Assembly (NCBI RefSeq): GCF_000420825.1
Contig: NZ_ATVR01000017.1
Location: 1 to 64,000, forward strand
From: Butyrivibrio sp. AE2015
Lineage (GTDB): Bacteria; Bacillota; Clostridia; Lachnospirales; Lachnospiraceae
Direction of reading: 5' to 3'
Length of the DNA: 64,000 nt
The notes beneath the pieces are model-generated. The model ran no database searches. It saw only the letters and a list, made by a program, of their open reading frames with translations, and had not been told where the DNA came from. Position numbers and translations under genes: made by a program. Shown here piece by piece: positions 55,698-64,000 of the stretch (position 1 is its first letter; every line of letters starts with the position of its first letter).

Positions 55698-56888
55698 ATG
55701 GCAAAAGCTAAGTTTGACAGAACCAAACCACACGTTAACATTGGTACAATCGGTCACGTTGACCATGGTAAGACAACTCTTACAGCTGCTATCACAGCAG
55801 TACTTGCTGATAGAGGATTCAGCCCTGCAGTAGCATTCGATCAGATCGATAAGGCTCCTGAAGAGAAGGAAAGAGGAATCACAATCAACTCTGCTCACAT
55901 CGAGTACGAGACAGCGAAGAGACACTATGCTCACGTTGACTGCCCAGGCCACGCTGACTACGTTAAGAACATGATCACAGGTGCAGCTCAGATGGATGGA
56001 TCAATCCTTGTTGTTGCTGCTACTGATGGTGTTATGGCTCAGACAAAGGAGCACGTTCTTCTTTCACGTCAGGTTGGTGTACCTTACATCATCGTATTCA
56101 TGAACAAGTGCGATATGGTTGACGATCCTGAGCTTCTTGACCTCGTTGAGATGGAGATCAGAGACCTTCTTACAGAGTATGAGTTCCCTGGAGATGATAC
56201 ACCTATCATCCGTGGTTCAGCTCTTAAGGCTCTTGAAGATCCTAAGTCTGAGTGGGGCGATAAGATCATGGAACTTATGGATACAGTTGATTCATACATT
56301 CCTGAACCTACTCGTGAGAACGACAAGCCTTTCCTTATGCCTGTTGAGGACGTATTCACAATCACAGGACGTGGAACAGTTGCTACTGGTAGAGTAGAGA
56401 GAGGTTCACTTAACCTTAACGAAGAAATCGAAATCGTTGGTATTAAGGAAGAGACATCTAAGTCTGTTGTTACAGGTATCGAGATGTTCCGTAAGACTAT
56501 GGATTTCTGCGAAGCTGGTGACAACGTTGGTCTTCTTCTTCGTGGTGTTGACCGTGATGGTATCCAGAGAGGACAGGTTATCACAAAGCCTGGTACAGTA
56601 ACTTGCCATACAAAGTTCACTGCTGAGGTTTACGTTCTTACAAAGGACGAGGGTGGCCGTCATACTCCTTTCTTCACAAACTACAGACCACAGTTCTACT
56701 TCAGAACAACTGACGTTACAGGTGTCTGCAACCTTCCAGAAGGTGTTGAGATGTGCATGCCTGGTGACCACGTAACAATGAGCATCGAGCTTATTCACCC
56801 TATCGCTATGGAGCAGGGTCTTAAGTTCGCTATCCGTGAGGGTGGACGTACAGTTGGATCAGGTAAGGTTGCTACAATCGTAGAGTAA
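55698..56888 (+). CDS. tuf: Elongation factor Tu
   Basis: A 396-aa EF-Tu that delivers aminoacyl-tRNA. The G motifs are [24 protein letters not shown] and NKCD; the C-terminus ends [10 protein letters not shown]. Codon usage is the most biased of the window. TAAGGAGG precedes the ATG. It has its own promoter, and a very strong terminator inside a larger inverted repeat follows. Confidence 0.98.
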
Positions 56889-56894
56889 AGCTTA

Positions 56895-57034
56895 CGGCTT
56901 TGAGCCGCGCGTACGTAAATATAAGAGACTTGGAATGCTTGCATTTCCAAGTCTCTTTTTTTACGTACATGGGGCGAATGCCCCGCGCTAGTAAGCGAAA
57001 TCGAAGATTTCGGTTACGGAGCGGCTCAAAGCCG
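56895..57034. repeat. 140-bp nested inverted repeat around the tuf terminator
   Basis: CGGCTTTGAGCCGC (56895-56908) is repeated as its exact complement GCGGCTCAAAGCCG at 57021-57034. Inside lie GTACGTAAA (56911-56919) / TTTACGTAC (56960-56968), then the terminator. Two separate hairpins, GGGGC/GCCCC (56971-56984) and CGAAATC/GATTTCG (56996-57012), follow. The whole can fold as a cruciform or as a branched RNA. Confidence 0.65.
56924..56962 (+). terminator. Terminator of tuf
   Basis: The stem AGAGACTTGGAATGC (56924-56938) / GCATTTCCAAGTCTCT (56941-56956) has 15 pairs with one bulged T, followed by seven T. Confidence 0.95.
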
Positions 57035-57065
57035 ACTTATCGGATTGCATAAACACTAAACTTAT

Positions 57066-57100
57066 AAAGGGTTTCAAGCTTCGGCTTGGAACCCCTTTTT
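57066..57100 (+). terminator. Second terminator after tuf
   Basis: The stem AAAGGGTTTCAAGC (57066-57079) / GCTTGGAACCCCTTT has a stable TTCG loop and is followed by T. It backs up the first terminator or ends a short transcript from the repeat region. Confidence 0.85.
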
Positions 57101-57387
57101 GTGTATAAAATTATCGAAATGATGATTACTGGTACCAAAACGGTGCCATAAAAATCAATGCCTGTAAAGATACAAAAAAAGCTTATAAACAGAAGTGTGA
57201 CAGTTGTGATATTTGATAAGATACAAAAATGAGTATTTGTATTTTCAAATTGGCGGAGCTGAAGCTTGAAAAACATATACTTTCTAAATCTGATAAATTC
57301 TTTTTTGAAGATGTCAGGACATTAAAAAAGAATTATCATTGGATACCTTTGTCAAGTGTTTTTTAAGGATTTTTAATGTTTTTTTTG
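57101..57387. other. Gene-free stretch between tuf and the accessory island
   Basis: AT-rich DNA without a convincing gene. A 79-codon minus-strand frame (57037-57276) has hydrophobic stretches but no ribosome site and runs through the 57066-57100 terminator, so it is not called. Several poly-A/poly-T runs are present. I see no repeat or attachment site. Confidence 0.4.
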
Positions 57388-57434
57388 CAAAATAAAAAGG
57401 CTTGAAAGTCAGTATTTATCTGCCTTTCAGCCTT
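57388..57434 (-). terminator. Terminator of the radical SAM gene
   Basis: Read on the minus strand, AAGGCTGAAAG (57434-57424) pairs with CTTTCAAGCCTT (57408-57397), and TTTATTTT follows. A further hairpin, GTTGAC/GTCAAC, lies between it and the gene. Confidence 0.75.
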
Positions 57435-57480
57435 AAGTTGACCACATAGGTGCCTGTCAACGTGAAGATTGAAATGGGGC

Positions 57481-58866
57481 TCATTTTGCGTCGTAGCCTA
57501 ATGAAGTTAACAGTTCTGCAGCCTTAATATCAAATCCATTTTCATATATCAGGCATTTAGATGGATCGTAGTGCGCATATTGTCCGCTGTATAATAGACC
57601 AAGAGCGGGACAGCCGCCGGCACATTTTTCATAATGAGAGCAGGAGCGGCATTTTTCATTTTTTGAAAGGCGCTCTTCTACCGTCATATAGGTCCTGTCA
57701 TGGTAAGCTCCTTTGTTTAGAAGCTCAATGAGCTCTGTCTTTAATACATTTCCATCATCAATTCCTTTTAAGTCAAAGTATCCTGACATCTGCATGCAGG
57801 GATAGATCTTTCCGGAAGAACCTATGGCAGGCATTCCTTTGCAGGCTGAGCATAACGGAAGCCTGGAATTATACTTTTTTGTTGTGAACTTTTCATAGCC
57901 TGTCCTGTAGCTCTTTGATACCGGATCAACTGTCAGGAACAGCCAGGAAATGATCTTCATTTTATGATCTTTACTGCAATAGTCCTTAAGTATATTCAGA
58001 ACATTCTCATAGTATTCCTCCCAGGAGAGGGTAGCACTGACGCCGTTTTTTGCCCATTGGGGAGTTTCAATGGTGCGAATTATCCGGGTTGTTGATACGC
58101 CGATTTCATCAAGCATCTCAAGGGATGGGATAATGGTGCTAAGATTCTCTTTGTTGATATTCATTTGCACCATAACCTGAAATCCGCTTTTCACAGCAAG
58201 TTTAATGGAATAAAGGCTTTTTTCCTCCATCCCCGGGTTTCCACGCAAAGCATCATGGTATCCGATTCCGTCAAAAGAGATTTTAATCAGTGGTTTGTCA
58301 CCATGTTCTTTAAAATGATCGAGAATATCTGTTGTCAAAAATGATCCATTGGTATTAAGCTCACGAATGGACATTCCTCTTTCATCGATAGCATCAACGA
58401 TATCTTTGAAATCCTTGCGGATAAGAGGTTCGCCTCCGGTTATTGTAAGAGCAAACACACCGCATTTTTGTGCGTCATCAAGGATCTTAAGGATATTTTC
58501 AAAAGTGAGCTCCTCTTTTGGAGTATTGTTCCCAGTGGCATTGAAACAATGTCTGCAGTTGCAGTCGCACCTTTGGGTTATCTCAATATTCAAGGAAGGA
58601 GTAACATCATTGTTACAGTATCTGAATTGCTGCCAGGAAAGAAGATTTTCATCTTTATTTTCTTTTCTGATGATAATGCCTTCCTTAAGTAACTTTGAAG
58701 TTATTTCATTTTCTTCAATATCTTCAGTTCCATCGCAATAAAGAAGAGTGGTAAAATCCCTCCTATCAATAACATGCGGAAGATTCTCACCTCTTCTGTA
58801 ATAGGCAAAGGGAAGTTTATTCCAGGACCTGAGAGCAATATCCTTATTTAGTAAAAATGGTGCCAT
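57481..58866 (-). CDS. Radical SAM/SPASM enzyme, putative peptide maturase
   Basis: A 461-aa protein. Residues 1-85 form an N-terminal domain that may be a PqqD-like peptide-recognition element. The radical SAM core starts at EITQRCDCNCRHCFNATG, where CxxxCxxC binds the [4Fe-4S] cluster. TITGGEPLIRKDF follows. The C-terminal SPASM domain has Cys-rich LCSACKGMPAIGSSGKIYPC and CRSCSHYEKCAGGCPALG, binding auxiliary clusters. SPASM proteins often crosslink or modify ribosomal peptides. A Nif11-type precursor lies 3.2 kb away on the same strand. AGGAAGG precedes the ATG, and its promoter region is shared with the phosphodiesterase-RT operon. An anaerobic sulfatase-maturase-like role is less likely. 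Confidence 0.82.
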   Translation of the reverse strand: MAPFLLNKDIALRSWNKLPFAYYRRGENLPHVIDRRDFTTLLYCDGTEDIEENEITSKLLKEGIIIRKENKDENLLSWQQFRYCNNDVTPSLNIEITQRCDCNCRHCFNATGNNTPKEELTFENILKILDDAQKCGVFALTITGGEPLIRKDFKDIVDAIDERGMSIRELNTNGSFLTTDILDHFKEHGDKPLIKISFDGIGYHDALRGNPGMEEKSLYSIKLAVKSGFQVMVQMNINKENLSTIIPSLEMLDEIGVSTTRIIRTIETPQWAKNGVSATLSWEEYYENVLNILKDYCSKDHKMKIISWLFLTVDPVSKSYRTGYEKFTTKKYNSRLPLCSACKGMPAIGSSGKIYPCMQMSGYFDLKGIDDGNVLKTELIELLNKGAYHDRTYMTVEERLSKNEKCRSCSHYEKCAGGCPALGLLYSGQYAHYDPSKCLIYENGFDIKAAELLTSLGYDAK

Positions 58867-58902
58867 AGCATCTGCCTTCCTGATTTTTTATAGATATATT
58901 CA

Positions 58903-58931
58903 ATTATAAGCTTTCAGTGGAATGCATTCAA
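58903..58931 (-). promoter_or_regulatory. Promoter of the radical SAM gene
   Basis: On the minus strand TTGAAT (58931-58926) and TATAAT (58908-58903) are 17 bp apart. The palindrome GAATGCATTC (58920-58929) overlaps the -35 box and may bind a repressor. Confidence 0.75.
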
Positions 58932-58971
58932 ACAGTTATTATCCATAAAAAGATTATATGTATACCAAATT

Positions 58972-59000
58972 TTGCAGTAGTTCGGATTGCGCCGTATACT
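58972..59000 (+). promoter_or_regulatory. Promoter of the phosphodiesterase-RT operon
   Basis: TTGCAG (58972-58977) and TATACT (58995-59000) are 17 bp apart. It is divergent from the radical SAM promoter, only 41 bp away from its -35 box, so both operons can be controlled from one site. Confidence 0.7.
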
Positions 59001-59044
59001 ATATTTATCAGAATGCTGCATGAAGTGTGATTGGGAAACAGAGC

Positions 59045-60064
59045 ATGGAAAGAAATGATATGACCGTTTTCCCGGTGCTACCGGAAAACTACAAATTGAA
59101 TATTGCCATAGTCACGACCTATGATGTGGAAGTAGATGTCCTTAAGAAAATGCTTGCAGGTCAGAGAGACAAGGATAGATTCCTTATCTTTTACGGAGGA
59201 GGAGATTTTCTTGAAGGCCCGGCGGGGCAAAAGAGGGAAGAGGTGCTGCAAAGTCAGATTATTGATATTACTTTGCCTTCCGGAAACCCCGATTACCCTT
59301 TGGTAATAAATCATGGTAAGGTGTGGCTCTTTGAATATATTTCAGAAACAGGTGATTATGAATACCGCCTTGTTATCGGGAGCAGAAACATATCCTCCTT
59401 TGAAAACCTGGAGATCGGGGTCATGCTCAGGTCTGTGCCCTGTAAAGAAGATGACCAAAGAGCACTGTGGCTCATGTCCTACCTTGAAGCAATTACAGAC
59501 TGCATGAACGAAAAAGATACTGGCCAACTGAAATATGAAACAACAGACAAAGTACTTGAATTGAACAAAAGGCTTGAAAAAGTATCTTTTGCCATAGACG
59601 GAAAGTGGGAAAGCGATGACTATCGCATTGTCACACTTTTTCCCGGGGCCATGCTGATAAACAGGTTAAACAACAGTATCTTTGCAATGTGCAGGGACTA
59701 TGATGAGCTCGTCATTTGCTCACCGTTCATTGATTATAAATTGTTACAGATGTCCTTATTAGGTAAAAGAGAAAATGGAAGAGTTGTTGTTATATCAAAT
59801 AAGACGGTTATTGACGAATTAAAGGCCGTAGCAGGAAATTCTTCCTGTATTGTTTTTCTTATGCCCGGCAACAAAAAGTATGTTCATGCCAAGTTCTTTT
59901 TAAGAAGGCGTGAGGACAGGTTTGATCTTTATCTTGGCTCCATGAATGCCACCGGCCATGGCCTTAATCAAAACTACGAAGTTATGATACATATAAATGA
60001 TCCTGCCGGAGTTTCTTCTGCAGATGAGTTTATTTATGATGTCATTGGTGAGACAACATGTTAG
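59045..60064 (+). CDS. Tdp1-like HKN phosphodiesterase (PLD superfamily)
   Basis: A 339-aa member of the phospholipase D superfamily. There are two HxK...N half-sites, as in tyrosyl-DNA phosphodiesterase 1, not the HKD of lipases. The first is NHGKVWLFEY with H90, K92 and N114 (RLVIGSRNISSFENLEIGV). The second is VHAKFFLRRRED with H281, K283 and N301 (LYLGSMNATGHG). It probably cleaves a phosphodiester, maybe a protein- or nucleoside-DNA link. The start is uncertain: ATG 59045 has GGGA upstream, and ATG 59060 has GGAAAG 7 nt before it. The stop overlaps the RT start by 7 nt, suggesting coupled translation. Confidence 0.72.
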   Translation: MERNDMTVFPVLPENYKLNIAIVTTYDVEVDVLKKMLAGQRDKDRFLIFYGGGDFLEGPAGQKREEVLQSQIIDITLPSGNPDYPLVINHGKVWLFEYISETGDYEYRLVIGSRNISSFENLEIGVMLRSVPCKEDDQRALWLMSYLEAITDCMNEKDTGQLKYETTDKVLELNKRLEKVSFAIDGKWESDDYRIVTLFPGAMLINRLNNSIFAMCRDYDELVICSPFIDYKLLQMSLLGKRENGRVVVISNKTVIDELKAVAGNSSCIVFLMPGNKKYVHAKFFLRRREDRFDLYLGSMNATGHGLNQNYEVMIHINDPAGVSSADEFIYDVIGETTC

Positions 60065-61260
60065 AAAAATATACTGAAGATATTTTTAAAATTGCATCAT
60101 TGCCTGAGACCAGGCAGTCTGCTCTGGAGAGGTTTTCAAAAGGAACGAACTTATCAGGGGATGAAAGAACTGCGCTTAAAACATATCTTTTATCTGAAAT
60201 AGTCCTAAGAGACATTCAGATGCTAAAGGAGGGAAATTATTATTTTGACGAATTTACAGCAAAAAAGAGAAATATTGGCGGGAAGGAGAGGCTGATATTT
60301 TCACTTCCTTTTGAGCAAAAGACAATTATCAGGCTTATAAACTATGGAATACTTCTGAGGTATTCAGCTCAATTTTCAAAGGATTTATACTCTTTTAAGA
60401 TTGGAGGAAATCAGTATAAAAGCCTGGAATCTATTCGAAGTTGTAGCAATTTTAAGGATCTTTATCTCTTTAAGACAGATATTAAGAGCTATGGCCGAAG
60501 CATTGTGGAAAAGGAAATGTGTCACCTTCTGGATAGCTTTTTTGCACAGGATATAGAGCTTTGCGCCTTCCTGAAGTGGTATGTCAAAAGAAATACTTAC
60601 TATTTGGATGACGTGCTTTATGAAGATGCTCCGGTGACAAAAGATGGTCTTTCATTTTCAGGATTGTTTGAAAATATTTATCTGACAGATCTGGACAGTC
60701 TGATGGAGAAAGAGGCCGATTATTACTCACGCTTTGGTGATGATATCTTAATAGGAGCAGCTAGTAGAGAAAAACTTGATGGACTTATTGGAAAGACTAA
60801 AAATATATTTGATAAAAAAGGGCTGACTATGCACCCCATGAAGACTTCCATTTTCTTCCCCGGAGAGCGTTTTGAACATCTTGGCGTCATAGTTGAGGGG
60901 AGTAGTATTGATCTTTCAGAGGATTACCTTGCCTATATTGAGAGAAGAATAAGAAAGCGGGCAAGGAAGCTGGCAATTTTACAGAGAAAGAAAATATTGC
61001 CAAAAGAAATAGTCCTGTTTCGGATGATACAGTGGATTGAGACCTTAAAGAGTGATATAGAAATTACTCAGAGGTACAGTTTTATTACAACGGATAAGTC
61101 TCTTAAGAAAATAGACAGGATGTTAACAGATCTCATAAGAGGAGCTGCAGCAGGAACTACAGGAAGAAAGAAATATCAGGTTTCCTACAAGGAATTAAGT
61201 AAATGGGGTTATAAGAGTCTTGTCCGCGAATACTATGAGGCTATTTCATGCAAGAAATAG
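60058..61260 (+). CDS. Reverse transcriptase with FGDD active site
   Basis: A 400-aa reverse transcriptase. Motif A is FKTDIKSYGRS (D141), with the aromatic residue after KS. Motif B is GLSFSGLFENIYLTDLD (about 197-213). The catalytic loop is RFGDDILIG, FGDD at 226-229, in place of the common YADD. KKRNIGGKERLIFSLPFEQK (about 69-88) matches the early RT motifs. A basic, helical C-terminal region of about 120 residues may be the thumb. There is no maturase, endonuclease or IEP domain, and I see no intron structure, so it is not a group II intron protein. It is translationally coupled to the upstream phosphodiesterase. It resembles defence-associated, unclassified RTs; the exact clade is not assigned. 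Confidence 0.85.
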   Translation: MLEKYTEDIFKIASLPETRQSALERFSKGTNLSGDERTALKTYLLSEIVLRDIQMLKEGNYYFDEFTAKKRNIGGKERLIFSLPFEQKTIIRLINYGILLRYSAQFSKDLYSFKIGGNQYKSLESIRSCSNFKDLYLFKTDIKSYGRSIVEKEMCHLLDSFFAQDIELCAFLKWYVKRNTYYLDDVLYEDAPVTKDGLSFSGLFENIYLTDLDSLMEKEADYYSRFGDDILIGAASREKLDGLIGKTKNIFDKKGLTMHPMKTSIFFPGERFEHLGVIVEGSSIDLSEDYLAYIERRIRKRARKLAILQRKKILPKEIVLFRMIQWIETLKSDIEITQRYSFITTDKSLKKIDRMLTDLIRGAAAGTTGRKKYQVSYKELSKWGYKSLVREYYEAISCKK

Positions 61261-61264
61261 CCTC
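61237..61264. terminator. 11-bp hairpin across the RT stop codon
   Basis: GAGGCTATTTC (61237-61247) and GAAATAGCCTC (61254-61264) form a perfect stem with the loop ATGCAA. It covers the RT stop and lies 11 bp from the end of the convergent Fic gene. No T-run follows on either strand. It may protect 3' ends or stop transcription from both sides. Confidence 0.55.
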
Positions 61265-61275
61265 AGCATTGACAT

Positions 61276-62007
61276 TCATTGTGATAGATTGATTGCTTCA
61301 TTTTTAGCAAGCTCCAGATAGTCATAGGACTTTTCCAGAATGTCCATCATGAGAAGAGAGTAATCCCTGAACGTGTAGGGCTTTTGCCCGTAAAATACAC
61401 CTGAAGCCTTTCTTATTGCCACTGAATTGGCCTCACCATATATCACTTTCTGAACCGCATCCAATGGAATCAGTGTGGCGCATTTAAGTCCGAACTTATA
61501 GAGCAGGAATTGTTTTAGCAGTACCGACATACGACCATTACCATCAGACATTGGGTGGATACAGATGAACTCCAGGGTGCACCTGAATATGTCTTCAAAA
61601 TGCTCCGGGTTAGCCTGATTCAGATGTGAATATCTTTTGCATAGCAGATCGATTTCCTTTTCAGTATCCTCGGGGGAAGCGGTTACATATACAAGGCTTT
61701 CGCCATTATAAATGTTGATGACAGAGGTCTTGAACCTGCTTTTTTCAAGGTCTGTTCCCAAAGTCAGGATGTCGTACAGCTTTAGGATAAGATATTTGTC
61801 AAAGGCTGCCTGACTGTTTTTCCCTATCCAATTAAGTACATTTAGTTCGTTTAATCTGTGCTTTTGGTGGACGAAAGGAAATGCCAGCAAAAGGTGAGAA
61901 GAGCTTTTTATATTGTCCGGAAGGCTTTCATAGAGCTTTGTATCCCGGTCATATAAAATGGAAATACGACTATCCTCGATTATCTTGTTGTTAACACATT
62001 GAGGCAT
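61276..62007 (-). CDS. Fic-family protein (putative AMPylase)
   Basis: A 243-aa Fic protein. The active motif HPMSDGNGRMSVLL (H151 to R159) is intact, with only Met for the common Phe. Fic enzymes usually transfer AMP from ATP to a Ser, Thr or Tyr of a target; some use other nucleotides. I do not see the usual N-terminal (S/T)xxxE(G/N) inhibitory helix. The N-terminus (about 1-110) is of a type I cannot classify. GGAG lies about 10 nt before the ATG. The gene begins 25 nt after the Nif11-type peptide gene on the same strand, so the two are probably co-transcribed, and the peptide is a possible substrate. Confidence 0.85.
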   Translation of the reverse strand: MPQCVNNKIIEDSRISILYDRDTKLYESLPDNIKSSSHLLLAFPFVHQKHRLNELNVLNWIGKNSQAAFDKYLILKLYDILTLGTDLEKSRFKTSVINIYNGESLVYVTASPEDTEKEIDLLCKRYSHLNQANPEHFEDIFRCTLEFICIHPMSDGNGRMSVLLKQFLLYKFGLKCATLIPLDAVQKVIYGEANSVAIRKASGVFYGQKPYTFRDYSLLMMDILEKSYDYLELAKNEAINLSQ

Positions 62008-62032
62008 CTGCTTGTTGCTCCATGGTTAGTTA

Positions 62033-62329
62033 TCAAAGATTGCTTTGTCGCAATTCGTGCCAGGATTTTTTTGCCTCCGGATCAGTAGAAACATAATCAA
62101 ACTTCTGACCTTCACAATCAGCGCCGCCGGTTACTTTATCTAGCTCCTCATCACCTAATTCAACGCTCTTAAAAGTCTCTGAAAACTGCTTGAAAAGTTT
62201 CTCTGCTTCCTCCAGGCTAAGATCATAACCGTTCTCCTTAGCGTAGTTTAAAAACTCTTCAGGGGATTTAAGATTAATCAGGTCTTTCATGATTGCGGGG
62301 GTTAATTCTGACATCTTAAATTTTTTCAT
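62033..62329 (-). CDS. Nif11-type RiPP precursor peptide
   Basis: A 98-aa peptide with a Nif11-like leader: SPEEFLNYAKENGYDLSLEE in the middle, then ELGDEELDKVTGG, a typical double-glycine cleavage site (Gly68-Gly69). The putative core of 29 residues begins ADCEGQKFDYVSTDPEAKKS and ends SWHELRQSNL. It has one Cys, a Tyr, a Trp, several Ser/Thr and two adjacent Lys. The start at 62329 has AAAGGAG 8 nt upstream; an upstream in-frame ATG at 62386 has none. Nif11 leaders direct peptides to modifying enzymes and to a cleaving exporter. No such exporter is in the window, but a Fic gene follows directly and a radical SAM/SPASM gene is near. Confidence 0.8.
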   Translation of the reverse strand: MKKFKMSELTPAIMKDLINLKSPEEFLNYAKENGYDLSLEEAEKLFKQFSETFKSVELGDEELDKVTGGADCEGQKFDYVSTDPEAKKSWHELRQSNL

Positions 62330-62386
62330 TACATTTTCTCCTTTCGATTTAAGAAAAGTGGGCAGAGAAAGACAAATCGATGTCAT

Positions 62387-62534
62387 ATTATGCGTTCTTT
62401 ACAAAACTCAGGCCATCTGCCAGGCCCTTTCCGGTAACGGAGTTTTGATTTGCCGCAGGGCAGATGCGCTATATGCGCGCTTTCTCTGCTGTATATACTC
62501 ACACATTTGTAAATGTGCAAATACCTGAGTGTTA
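62387..62534 (-). ncRNA. Structured gap between rtcB-like and Nif11 genes
   Basis: This 148-nt stretch contains three dyads: CATCTGCC (62414-62421) / GGCAGATG (62459-62466), enclosing CCG-GTAA-CGG; GCGC-TATAT-GCGC (62466-62478); and CACATTT-GT-AAATGTG (62502-62517). There is no T-run after the last one. It is richer in GC than its surroundings. It may be a leader of the peptide gene or a separate small RNA. Orientation is assumed from the flanking genes. Confidence 0.4.
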
Positions 62535-63638
62535 TCAATATCCTTTATAATTATATAAAGGAACAAGGATGCTCTTTATTTCTACAGTGTCTGTGATCTC
62601 CTCTGCGATTTCATCTATACTTCTGTAGGCCATGGGAGCTTCGTCAATGTTCTCTTTGCAGACAGTTGTGGAGTAGACTTCTTTAAGAGCACTTTGATAT
62701 TCTTTGAAATCTATTCTTACTTTTGCTTCTTTTCTGCTGAATTTCCGACCGCCTCCATGGGGGGCCGAGAAGTTCCATTCAGGATTTCCCTTTCCTATGC
62801 CGAGGATGGTTCCATCCCTGCTGTTTACCGGTATTACGACTTTTTCGCCTTCATGTGCTGAGATGGCTCCGTGCCTTACAATATTATCCGAAAGGTCAGT
62901 ATAGTGATGACAGATATCAATTTTATCGTTGACGGTGAATGACATTTCTTTGATGATCTGTTCTGCAATAAATGCCCTGTTTTTTTTTGAAAGCTCTATG
63001 CAAAGCTGCATATCGTGCAGGTAGTCATCAAGGTCTTCTCCTGATAAAAGAGTATCTTCAAGGCGATAGGGCATATCCATCGATTTGCCGGCCTTATGAA
63101 GTGCAAGTTCAAGATAATGCCTAAGGACAGCGGCAGAAACCCCTTCCACGCCGTTGTGCACAATGAGGTAGTTCCGTCCGCCCAAGTCTCTGTCAATCTC
63201 TATGAAGTGGTTACCGCCACCAAGAGATCCTAGTGAAAACGAAAGAAAACGAAAGCGGGTGGTGGCATCCGGGAGCCTGAATCTAGAAACATCAAATTCA
63301 TATTGGGTAGTCAGAAATATCTCATCTTTTTGTGTCGGGAACTCATGGCAGATGCCATCCAGCTTTTCAAAATCAATCTGATTGGAACCTATATCGTAGC
63401 AACAGATCCCACATCCTGCACCATACTCAAGTCCCATTACGGCTGCATCTTTGAACAGCATTGTAAAGCCGGTAATTGTCCCGTCGCTATTGGCAGTAGC
63501 ATCAGGCATAATGCAGACATGTCTGTCGCTGATAAATCCATGTGAGCATATTTCCGTCAGGTTTTCATGGACTTTATCAGAGTATTCTTTGGCATAAATC
63601 AGCGCTTGTGCATCGCTTCCGAATATGATCTTCTTCAT
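62535..63638 (-). CDS. Divergent RtcB-family RNA ligase
   Basis: A 367-aa protein, short for RtcB (400-480). RtcB joins 2',3'-cyclic phosphate and 5'-OH RNA ends with GTP and Mn2+. Present are SLGGGNHFIEID, NYLIVHNGVEG, a CHHYTDLSDNIVRHGA segment, and SAPHGGGRKFSR with the His that is guanylylated. The usual VGVDIGCG metal site reads GLEYGAGCGI, so Asp is replaced by Glu and the spacing to Cys changes; PDVHxG reads PDATAN. It may have changed metal use or specificity. Its ATG is only 7 nt past a TATAAT on this strand, with no ribosome site. The C-terminus (DEAPMAYRSIDEIAEEI) is of the RtcB2 type. Confidence 0.8.
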   Translation of the reverse strand: MKKIIFGSDAQALIYAKEYSDKVHENLTEICSHGFISDRHVCIMPDATANSDGTITGFTMLFKDAAVMGLEYGAGCGICCYDIGSNQIDFEKLDGICHEFPTQKDEIFLTTQYEFDVSRFRLPDATTRFRFLSFSLGSLGGGNHFIEIDRDLGGRNYLIVHNGVEGVSAAVLRHYLELALHKAGKSMDMPYRLEDTLLSGEDLDDYLHDMQLCIELSKKNRAFIAEQIIKEMSFTVNDKIDICHHYTDLSDNIVRHGAISAHEGEKVVIPVNSRDGTILGIGKGNPEWNFSAPHGGGRKFSRKEAKVRIDFKEYQSALKEVYSTTVCKENIDEAPMAYRSIDEIAEEITDTVEIKSILVPLYNYKGY

Positions 63639-63645
63639 AAGAAAA

Positions 63646-63651
63646 ATTATA
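63646..63651 (-). promoter_or_regulatory. -10 box directly before the rtcB-like gene
   Basis: TATAAT on the minus strand ends 7 nt before the ATG. No convincing -35 box is seen. The transcript would start at or near the initiation codon. Confidence 0.4.
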
Positions 63652-63721
63652 GCAATTTATACATTTAAAGTAATCTGAGATAATTTTATTTTAATTTATT
63701 TTACACATTTTTAATAATGTG

Positions 63722-63841
63722 ATGTGGTATATTAATGCTACATACCTGTCTGTCACCAAGCATTTCCTTTATGAGTCTTTTGGATTTGAAGAAACTGGGG
63801 ATGTGGACGGAGAAGAATTAATTGCAGTTTTAAAACTATAA
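63722..63841 (+). pseudogene. C-terminal relic of a GNAT acetyltransferase
   Basis: A 39-codon frame ending ESFGFEETGDVDGEELIAVLKL, preceded by NATYLSVTKHFLY. This is the typical last beta-alpha-beta unit of a GNAT acetyltransferase. The N-terminal 100 or more residues with the acetyl-CoA site are missing and there is no ribosome site. It is a remnant at the edge of the accessory island. The rest of the gap (63639-63874) is AT-rich and empty. Confidence 0.65.
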
Positions 63842-63874
63842 TATCGGGAGATGTTGGGGAATGGCAGCTATTCT

Positions 63875-64000
63875 ATGAGAGTAATGATAATTAGGCATGG
63901 AAAAGTACTTCATGACTGGAAAAAGTGGTGCACATCTGCTGAGTTTGATGAGCAATGTGCGTTATATGACAAAGCTCCGATTGATAAGGCATCTGTAGAT
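63875..64000 (+). CDS. Histidine phosphatase family protein (5' part)
   Basis: The first 42 codons of a gene cut by the window end. MRVMIIRHGKVLHDWKKW carries the RHG motif of the phosphoglycerate mutase/histidine phosphatase superfamily, with the phosphohistidine in RHG. ATG at 63875 is preferred because the protein then begins like other members; an in-frame ATG at 63851 is possible. GGGGA is about 14 nt upstream. Substrate cannot be judged. Confidence 0.7.
   Translation, partial: MRVMIIRHGKVLHDWKKWCTSAEFDEQCALYDKAPIDKASVD

Follow-up and report, generated by a model that had tools for sequence, protein, structure and literature searches.

The question raised by the right end of the window, a 64,000-nt stretch of DNA from Butyrivibrio sp. 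AE2015 (contig NZ_ATVR01000017.1, positions 1 to 64,000), is which of six closely spaced genes (57481-63638) work together. A first-pass annotation had placed here genes for a radical S-adenosylmethionine (SAM) enzyme (-), a phospholipase D (PLD)-family phosphodiesterase and a reverse transcriptase (RT) (+), and a Fic protein, a Nif11-like peptide and an RtcB-family protein (-), and had proposed that these genes, each of a kind typical of accessory or defence loci, act jointly. Open reading frame analysis and searches with Pfam, PADLOC and NCBIfam profiles confirmed six open frames of these kinds, positions and orientations, and the scores for Radical_SAM, SPASM, PLDc_2, RVT_1, Fic and RtcB all exceeded the curated Pfam cut-offs. 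The part of the proposal that stands concerns two genes: the RT belongs to a defence-associated group, and its gene overlaps that of the phosphodiesterase, with which it probably forms a unit; cooperation among all six found no support. With moderate confidence, we take the functional unit to be a two-gene PLD-RT operon (59027-61260, +), a variant of the UG26 systems with a swapped partner and a probable anti-phage role.

The reverse transcriptase

The RT matched RVT_1 with 43.3 bits (cut-off 29.6). Its best PADLOC model was RT_UG26 (5.2e-61, 204.6 bits), and the next, RT_UG4, scored 132 bits lower (72.6). All 20 aligned relatives also match RT_UG26, among other RT models. The identity of the window RT to 19 aligned relatives is 21-30%. 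By these matches it belongs to the UG26 group of defence-associated RTs, of which it is a very divergent member. UG RTs are reportedly the subject of a study by Mestre et al. in 2022. The frame is open over 400 aa, and in the alignment both catalytic Asp residues (FGDD) and the KTDI of motif A are kept, as is a C-terminal block, G-Y-x-S-L-V-x-x-Y-Y. The C-terminal aromatic pair of UG26-type RTs is YY in 20 of 28 rows of the family search, and Tyr takes one or both places in 27 of them.

Peptide-pattern scans built from the window RT alone recovered no relatives. Relatives were found with patterns of alignment A4, which favour RTs ending in a C-terminal YY, and the sample comprises hits in 397 genomes of the family plus 80 loci retained from the 272 that were confirmed in GTDB genomes; six of the 37 RT-bearing family genomes are absent from all trees. 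Over the phylum, the UG26 profile detected, besides the RTs of the own genome and of genome G240, only RTs of at most 140 bits, many of them multi-copy; these are presumed group II introns and served only as an outgroup.

The probable phosphodiesterase partner

The PLD protein matched PLDc_2 with 31.6 bits (cut-off 27), and its best defence model was PADLOC ZacB (2e-31, profile positions 70-347 of 586). Two H-x-K...N (HKN) motifs are the hallmark of Tdp1-like phosphodiesterases; both are retained, in alignment columns common to six ZacB-like proteins. Across the 397 family genomes, eight gave a match, the own genome included, and the others are distant (best E 2.9e-20 at 24% identity), with frames of 569-625 aa. 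Six of these seven other loci were fetched, and each carries a protein of about 400 aa, a ZacB-like protein and a helicase-like protein, with no RT match. The window protein, which resembles the N-terminal part of ZacB and whose gene overlaps that of the RT, is thus a short relative of ZacB with an RT as its neighbour. A PDB sequence search with it returned no credible relative (one row, E 0.074). The only phage record with a PLD match, an unannotated phage-labelled contig (L318, MT835621.1, 6704-13023), likewise carries a Zac-like trio of 400-aa-type, PLD and helicase-like proteins and has no RT match.

The 3′ end of the PLD gene and the 5′ end of the RT gene overlap by 7 nt (60058-60064), so the two are probably co-expressed. 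This pair, probably one unit, is the only one that the sequence itself supports.

Two lineages of UG26-type RTs and their partners

The co-occurrence of the RT with each of its neighbours was counted with profiles at 106 other UG26-type RT loci (flanks of 0 to about 10 kb per side, matches at E <= 0.01). Fic, RtcB, Nif11 and PLD, the last with a profile built from the window protein and the six ZacB-like proteins, were each found at 0 of 106. For the RT, the refuting condition named in the first-pass annotation, homologues that mostly lack Nif11, Fic or RtcB genes nearby, thus went against the six-gene proposal. A PLD-family protein about 4.3 kb from the RT of locus L116 (phmmer 4e-6) gave no match to the PLD profile and was left uncounted.

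These RTs fall into two lineages, of 82 and 24 loci (window RT uncounted). An endonuclease-like protein of COG2852 type stands beside the RT in 74 of the 82 loci of the larger one, and PADLOC RTasCOG2852 was matched by 15 of 18 scanned members of this partner family. For this partner an alpha-beta-beta-beta-alpha-beta core is predicted, which matches nuclease folds middlingly well; a PDB sequence search with it gave no credible relative (one row, E 0.99). Its profile (A2) had no match in the window or in locus L061 at E <= 0.01, and none at the 24 loci of the second lineage (E <= 1e-4). With 74 of 82 in one lineage and 0 of 24 in the other, the COG2852-like partner is typical of UG26 rather than defining.

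The second lineage is linked to exporter genes. A pair of ABC (ATP-binding cassette) exporter genes lies within about 3.2 kb of the RT in 18 of its 24 loci (L062, L105, L107, L116, L182, L185-L190, L193, L194, L196, L201, L203, L204, L217), with the RT before the exporters in eight, after them in five (in L062 with an RNA-methylase gene in between) and divergent from them in five. Among the six remaining loci, the contig ends are too close in L197 and L207, no exporter pair is present in L191, L192 and L209, and in L184 the pair is 6 kb off, on a contig shared with L185. The two RTs of L184 and L185, about 12 kb apart, both belong to this lineage, one with and one without adjacent exporters. 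A weak exporter-profile match also adjoins two RTs of viral contigs from IMG/VR, L261 (21 bits) and L262 (25 bits). With the UG26 alignment profile these RTs reach only 59 bits (L261) and 48 bits (L262), and neither has a PLD match next to it.

In all 17 readable, non-redundant cases the first exporter carries Asn instead of the catalytic Cys of its C39 peptidase domain. The aligned His is replaced as well, by Tyr in 16 and by Trp in one, and three have a His at the preceding position. Exporters from other clusters (L133, L135, L192) retain both the C39 Cys and His. Judged from these residues, the C39 site of the lineage's exporters is destroyed. When the 397 genomes were searched with the C39 part of one such exporter, three matches scored 202-319 bits and the next dropped to 114 bits. 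The three lie in the three sampled genomes that have an RT of the exporter lineage by the trees, which cover all but six of the 37 RT-bearing genomes.

Radical SAM enzymes also occur here. One of B12 type (Radical_SAM_N2) is fused N-terminally to the RT in L116 (3626-7468, +) and L217 (7259-11104, +), and in L062 (3279-7158, -) the two genes overlap, with their order reversed relative to the fusions. By Pfam, radical SAM domains were present in three of 62 proteins encoded near RTs of the exporter lineage, a set made up of the L217 fusion and 61 of the 77 neighbours listed; in 24 other loci (108 of 398 neighbour proteins) radical SAM was not among the best 25 of 136 Pfam families. The comparison is weak because only part of the neighbour proteins and families was covered. 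SpoU-type RNA methylase domains were seen in five of the 62 proteins, in L062, L192 and L209 (loci assigned by eye).

Placement of the window RT

The window RT fell with the exporter lineage in three trees. In the first it grouped with four others (support 97/92); in the second (unrooted, 107 rows) it lay in the starred set of 25 rows; and in the third (54 rows, with outgroup) it joined ten members at 95/90, within an exporter clade supported at only 94/67. The approximately unbiased (AU) test rejected neither a grouping of the window RT with the other lineage (p 0.144) nor an exporter clade without it (p 0.209). The exporter lineage is therefore the best placement, but without significance by this test.

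Neither exporter profile matched the window or the 20 kb that surround the locus, and the nearest exporters of the own genome are of other subfamilies (30-32% identity; best 90.5 bits at 30%). Placement in the exporter lineage, together with the lack of an exporter nearby, makes it likely that an exporter was lost and the PLD gene gained in the line leading to the window.

Weighing the two-gene operon

Several observations weigh against a PLD-RT defence operon. The pairing was found nowhere else in the data searched (the 397 family genomes, 80 of the 272 GTDB loci, IMG/VR, and phage and plasmid records), and with a single case a conserved linkage cannot be shown. The branch of the window RT is very long (2.1-3.0). 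Its xDD motif is FGDD, versus YxDD in 108 of 110 RT rows (99 YSDD, 6 YTDD, 2 YADD, 1 YCDD; one row unread). The long branch and FGDD together suggest that the RT may be decaying. A structure of the PLD protein predicted without an alignment was unusable (mean predicted local distance difference test score, pLDDT, 36). An Rfam scan of 56800-64000 gave no family at gathering score and three sub-threshold matches to families of other kinds, so no non-coding RNA family was matched, and the anti-phage activity itself is putative.

Part of this would suit a relic or domesticated RT, a UG26 enzyme that has been left without its partner, has diverged rapidly and persists beside an unrelated PLD gene. 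The branch length, the FGDD motif, the single occurrence of the pair, the lack of an exporter match in the window and the 20 kb around it, and the confinement of exporters to other subfamilies elsewhere in the genome all point that way. Against it, the RT frame is open throughout and retains the catalytic Asp residues as well as the C-terminal block, and the PLD protein has its two HKN motifs intact. This reading is unlikely.

Layout of the locus

The features are listed in Table 1. The six genes are divided between the two strands and, judged from their layout, make up three or more transcription units. The RT and Fic genes are convergent, and 15 nt separate the ends of their stop codons (11-15 bp in the first-pass annotation); the Nif11 and Fic genes are co-oriented and 25 nt apart, with Fic downstream. 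That annotation put the two sides of the left promoter region 41 bp apart: as a gene spacing this does not hold, the distance from the radical SAM start to the first possible PLD start being 160 nt, but it fits the spacing of two promoter-like hexamer pairs, at 58931 (-) and 58971 (+). Promoter-like sites are no more frequent in this intergenic region than by chance (20 observed, 19.3 +/- 4.6 in shuffles). The PLD start is taken as GTG 59027, with ATG 59045 or 59060 also possible. The open frame of the Nif11 peptide is 62033-62386 (-), in which ATG 62329, behind AAAGGAG, looks the better start by eye.

Table 1. Genes and intergenic region of the six-gene locus in window coordinates
Feature	Coordinates	Strand	Basis or remark
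Radical SAM/SPASM enzyme, probable maturase of a Nif11-type peptide	57481-58866	-	Radical_SAM and SPASM above cut-off
Divergent intergenic region between radical SAM and PLD-RT genes, 160 nt	58867-59026	.	Possible seat of the RT promoter or a non-coding RNA
ZacB-like PLD-family phosphodiesterase, first gene of the putative RT operon	59027-60064	+	PLDc_2, PADLOC ZacB
UG26-type RT	60058-61260	+	RVT_1, RT_UG26, trees
Divergent Fic protein	61276-62007	-	Fic 1.1e-10 (Pfam)
Nif11-like leader peptide, 98 aa, GG then a short core	62033-62329	-	Pfam and NCBIfam, both below cut-off
RtcB-family protein	62535-63638	-	RtcB 1e-33 (Pfam)

The radical SAM enzyme and the Nif11 peptide

The Nif11 peptide, in which GG precedes the core, scores just below the cut-offs of Pfam (23.6 versus 23.8; 6.4e-5) and of NCBIfam leader_Nif11 (27.5 versus 32.3; 2.7e-6). 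Among 41 genomes it found matches in its own only; three further matches there are weak, and two of these lie in a cluster that also holds radical SAM genes. At 1e-30, the window's radical SAM enzyme had matches in three of the 41, own included. In all three fetched loci, one of them in the own genome, the radical SAM homologue lies beside a Nif11-type gene or one gene from it: adjoining in L133 (Pfam 25.6 bits), one gene off in L134 (19.0 bits, below cut-off), and one gene from two Nif11-type peptides (phmmer) in L135. The enzyme and the peptide of the window are thus probably a separate peptide-maturation pair, with the peptide as putative substrate.

Some of these loci have features of their own. 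A 231-aa frame of L133 (5829-6521, +), beside the SPASM radical SAM gene, consists of a Nif11 leader followed by a Hint/intein-like domain. The cluster of the own genome (L135, contig C2, 6861-11521) combines three radical SAM genes with the two Nif11-type peptides, and one of the matches contains a TAG. A weak Nif11-like frame (L209, 4981-5226, +; E 0.077 in a looser scan) lies about 4.8 kb from an RT of the exporter lineage.

Could the pair nonetheless belong with the RT, in a four-gene system of radical SAM enzyme, Nif11, PLD and RT that has lost its exporter and uses the modified peptide as effector or signal? The best placement of the window RT among exporter-linked RTs (95/90 with ten members), the exporter pairs of 18 of the 24 other members, and the radical SAM enzymes fused to the RT or overlapping its gene would all fit. 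In addition, a relative of the window SPASM enzyme, scoring 401 bits, occurs in locus L192, where about 1.3 kb with a cysteine desulfurase-like frame (named by eye) separate it from an RT of this lineage; it is the sole hint that the SPASM enzyme and the RT belong together. However, a SPASM enzyme near the RT in one of 24 loci, versus none of 82 in the other lineage, is too few to be meaningful, and none of the 106 loci has a Nif11 match at E <= 0.01. The fused and overlapping enzymes are of B12 type, a different family from the window SPASM enzyme. Since the lineage's exporters have lost the C39 Cys (17 of 17), the handling of leader peptides is not required of them. The radical SAM and Nif11 genes lie on the opposite strand from PLD-RT and explain each other, and the AU test allows the window RT in the other lineage. 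A four-gene system is accordingly improbable.

A broader form of this idea is that UG26 holds an RT lineage built on membrane export and radical SAM chemistry, of which the window is an offshoot. The exporter would have been replaced by a Tdp1/ZacB-like phosphodiesterase plus a modified Nif11 peptide, so that RT-made DNA, an enzyme that frees or cuts it, and a peptide take part in one immune response. We regard this as a speculative proposal of low probability.

Fic, RtcB and the site downstream of tuf

The Fic motif is HPFxDGNGRxxR; in the window protein it reads HPMSDGNGRMSV (by eye), without the second Arg. Fic relatives amounted to one weak match in 40 other genomes (two of 41 with the own). 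RtcB had matches in 12 of the 40 (13 of 41 with the own), 43% identical at the best E; three RtcB loci were fetched and none has any of the other five genes. A PDB sequence search with RtcB gave nothing at 1e-5.

In 11 other genomes of the genus (tuf protein 93-100% identical), the 1.5 kb after tuf holds other genes, which differ among most of them, so the six genes sit in a variable place. Integrase-like frames occur by eye among the post-tuf genes of those genomes. Profiles of the six genes, run against the post-tuf regions of 12 genomes (the 11 plus G021), gave a sole match, to SPASM in L302, which at 12.3 bits was taken as chance level. In L294 (genome G012), repressor-, excisionase- and integrase-like frames directly follow tuf (by eye), a sign that the 3′ side of tuf takes up mobile elements. 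The contig beyond the window carries phosphatase-like, repressor-like and TnpB-like genes (named by eye). GC content has no sharp step at the locus, and no flanking direct repeats marking an inserted element were found, those listed being short two-copy matches.

As far as tested, Fic and RtcB are bystanders gathered in the variable site after tuf. The six-gene scheme, in which RtcB seals RNA, the RT copies it and PLD clears ends, while the cell is the target of Fic or the peptide, has the short gaps and the 6.2 kb span in its favour but is very improbable given the zero counts for Fic, RtcB, Nif11 and PLD at the 106 RT loci, the other contexts in which relatives of RtcB and the radical SAM enzyme sit, the split over both strands, and the variability of the site.

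Possible function and significance

For the two-gene PLD-RT operon, the following course may be proposed. On phage infection the RT would make DNA, perhaps primed on its own C-terminal tyrosines by analogy with the defence-associated RT system DRT9, which is UG28. The PLD protein would then act on nucleic acid as an effector, in place of the COG2852-type partner of most UG26 loci sampled. Alternatively, the DNA could be released from protein by a Tdp1-like enzyme of HKN type; use as an effector seems slightly likelier than end-clearing. If UG26 RTs self-prime, the HKN enzyme could free or destroy the product; otherwise PLD may be an effector nuclease. According to excerpted text of PMC12483538, class 2 UG RTs use RNA templates, and the DNA made by DRT9 is linked to the enzyme via C-terminal tyrosines. 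DRT10 is UG17, also a class 2 UG RT, in a passage of PMC12632851.

The literature searched held no account of UG26 function; the one relevant paper there that names UG26 counts it among the RTs of cold-seep viruses. Narrow term searches of the open-licence PMC set found no paper linking RTs to exporters, to COG2852 or to Tdp1. Defence RTs are an active field, in which the partner is the best clue to the purpose of the RT's DNA product. Here three kinds of partner are found with a single RT group: endonuclease-like proteins, pairs of ABC exporters in which the C39 site is destroyed and, in one case, an HKN phosphodiesterase. These three amount to a natural experiment on whether the partner reads, cuts, releases or exports what the RT makes. 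An RT with a Tdp1-like partner, moreover, lets one ask whether protein-primed DNA needs freeing from its enzyme, and the RT-exporter lineage deserves study in its own right.

Comparison with known systems

The radical SAM enzyme and Nif11-like peptide are of the same kinds as in Nif11-type clusters for ribosomally synthesised and post-translationally modified peptides (RiPPs) with a SPASM radical SAM enzyme, but in the window PLD-RT and Fic stand between the two genes, and neither the window nor the surrounding 20 kb yielded an exporter match. The Argonaute-associated PLD nuclease AgaP offers a parallel by description: in an excerpt of PMC11442185, a PLD protein acts in immunity beside Argonaute, and so as the PLD-family partner of a nucleic-acid enzyme, which in the window is an RT instead. 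DRT9 and DRT10 are likewise built on a UG RT, and C-terminal protein priming may be shared, by analogy only; they belong to other UG groups, and no non-coding RNA or SLATT partner was identified at the window.

With ZacB of Zac, a candidate system in PADLOC, the window PLD protein aligns from the N-terminus over the catalytic half, both HKN motifs included, but it is 345 aa long, versus 567-621 aa, and lacks the C-terminal part. Among the frames around the locus there are, by eye, none for the partners of about 400 aa and of helicase type, whereas all six fetched loci have both. Compared with the UG26 RT plus RTasCOG2852 of PADLOC, the window RT is divergent (only 21-30% identity to the 19 aligned relatives) and its partner is a PLD-family HKN phosphodiesterase; the two systems share an RT of about 400 aa, its catalytic core, the C-terminal block and an adjoining partner of nuclease type.

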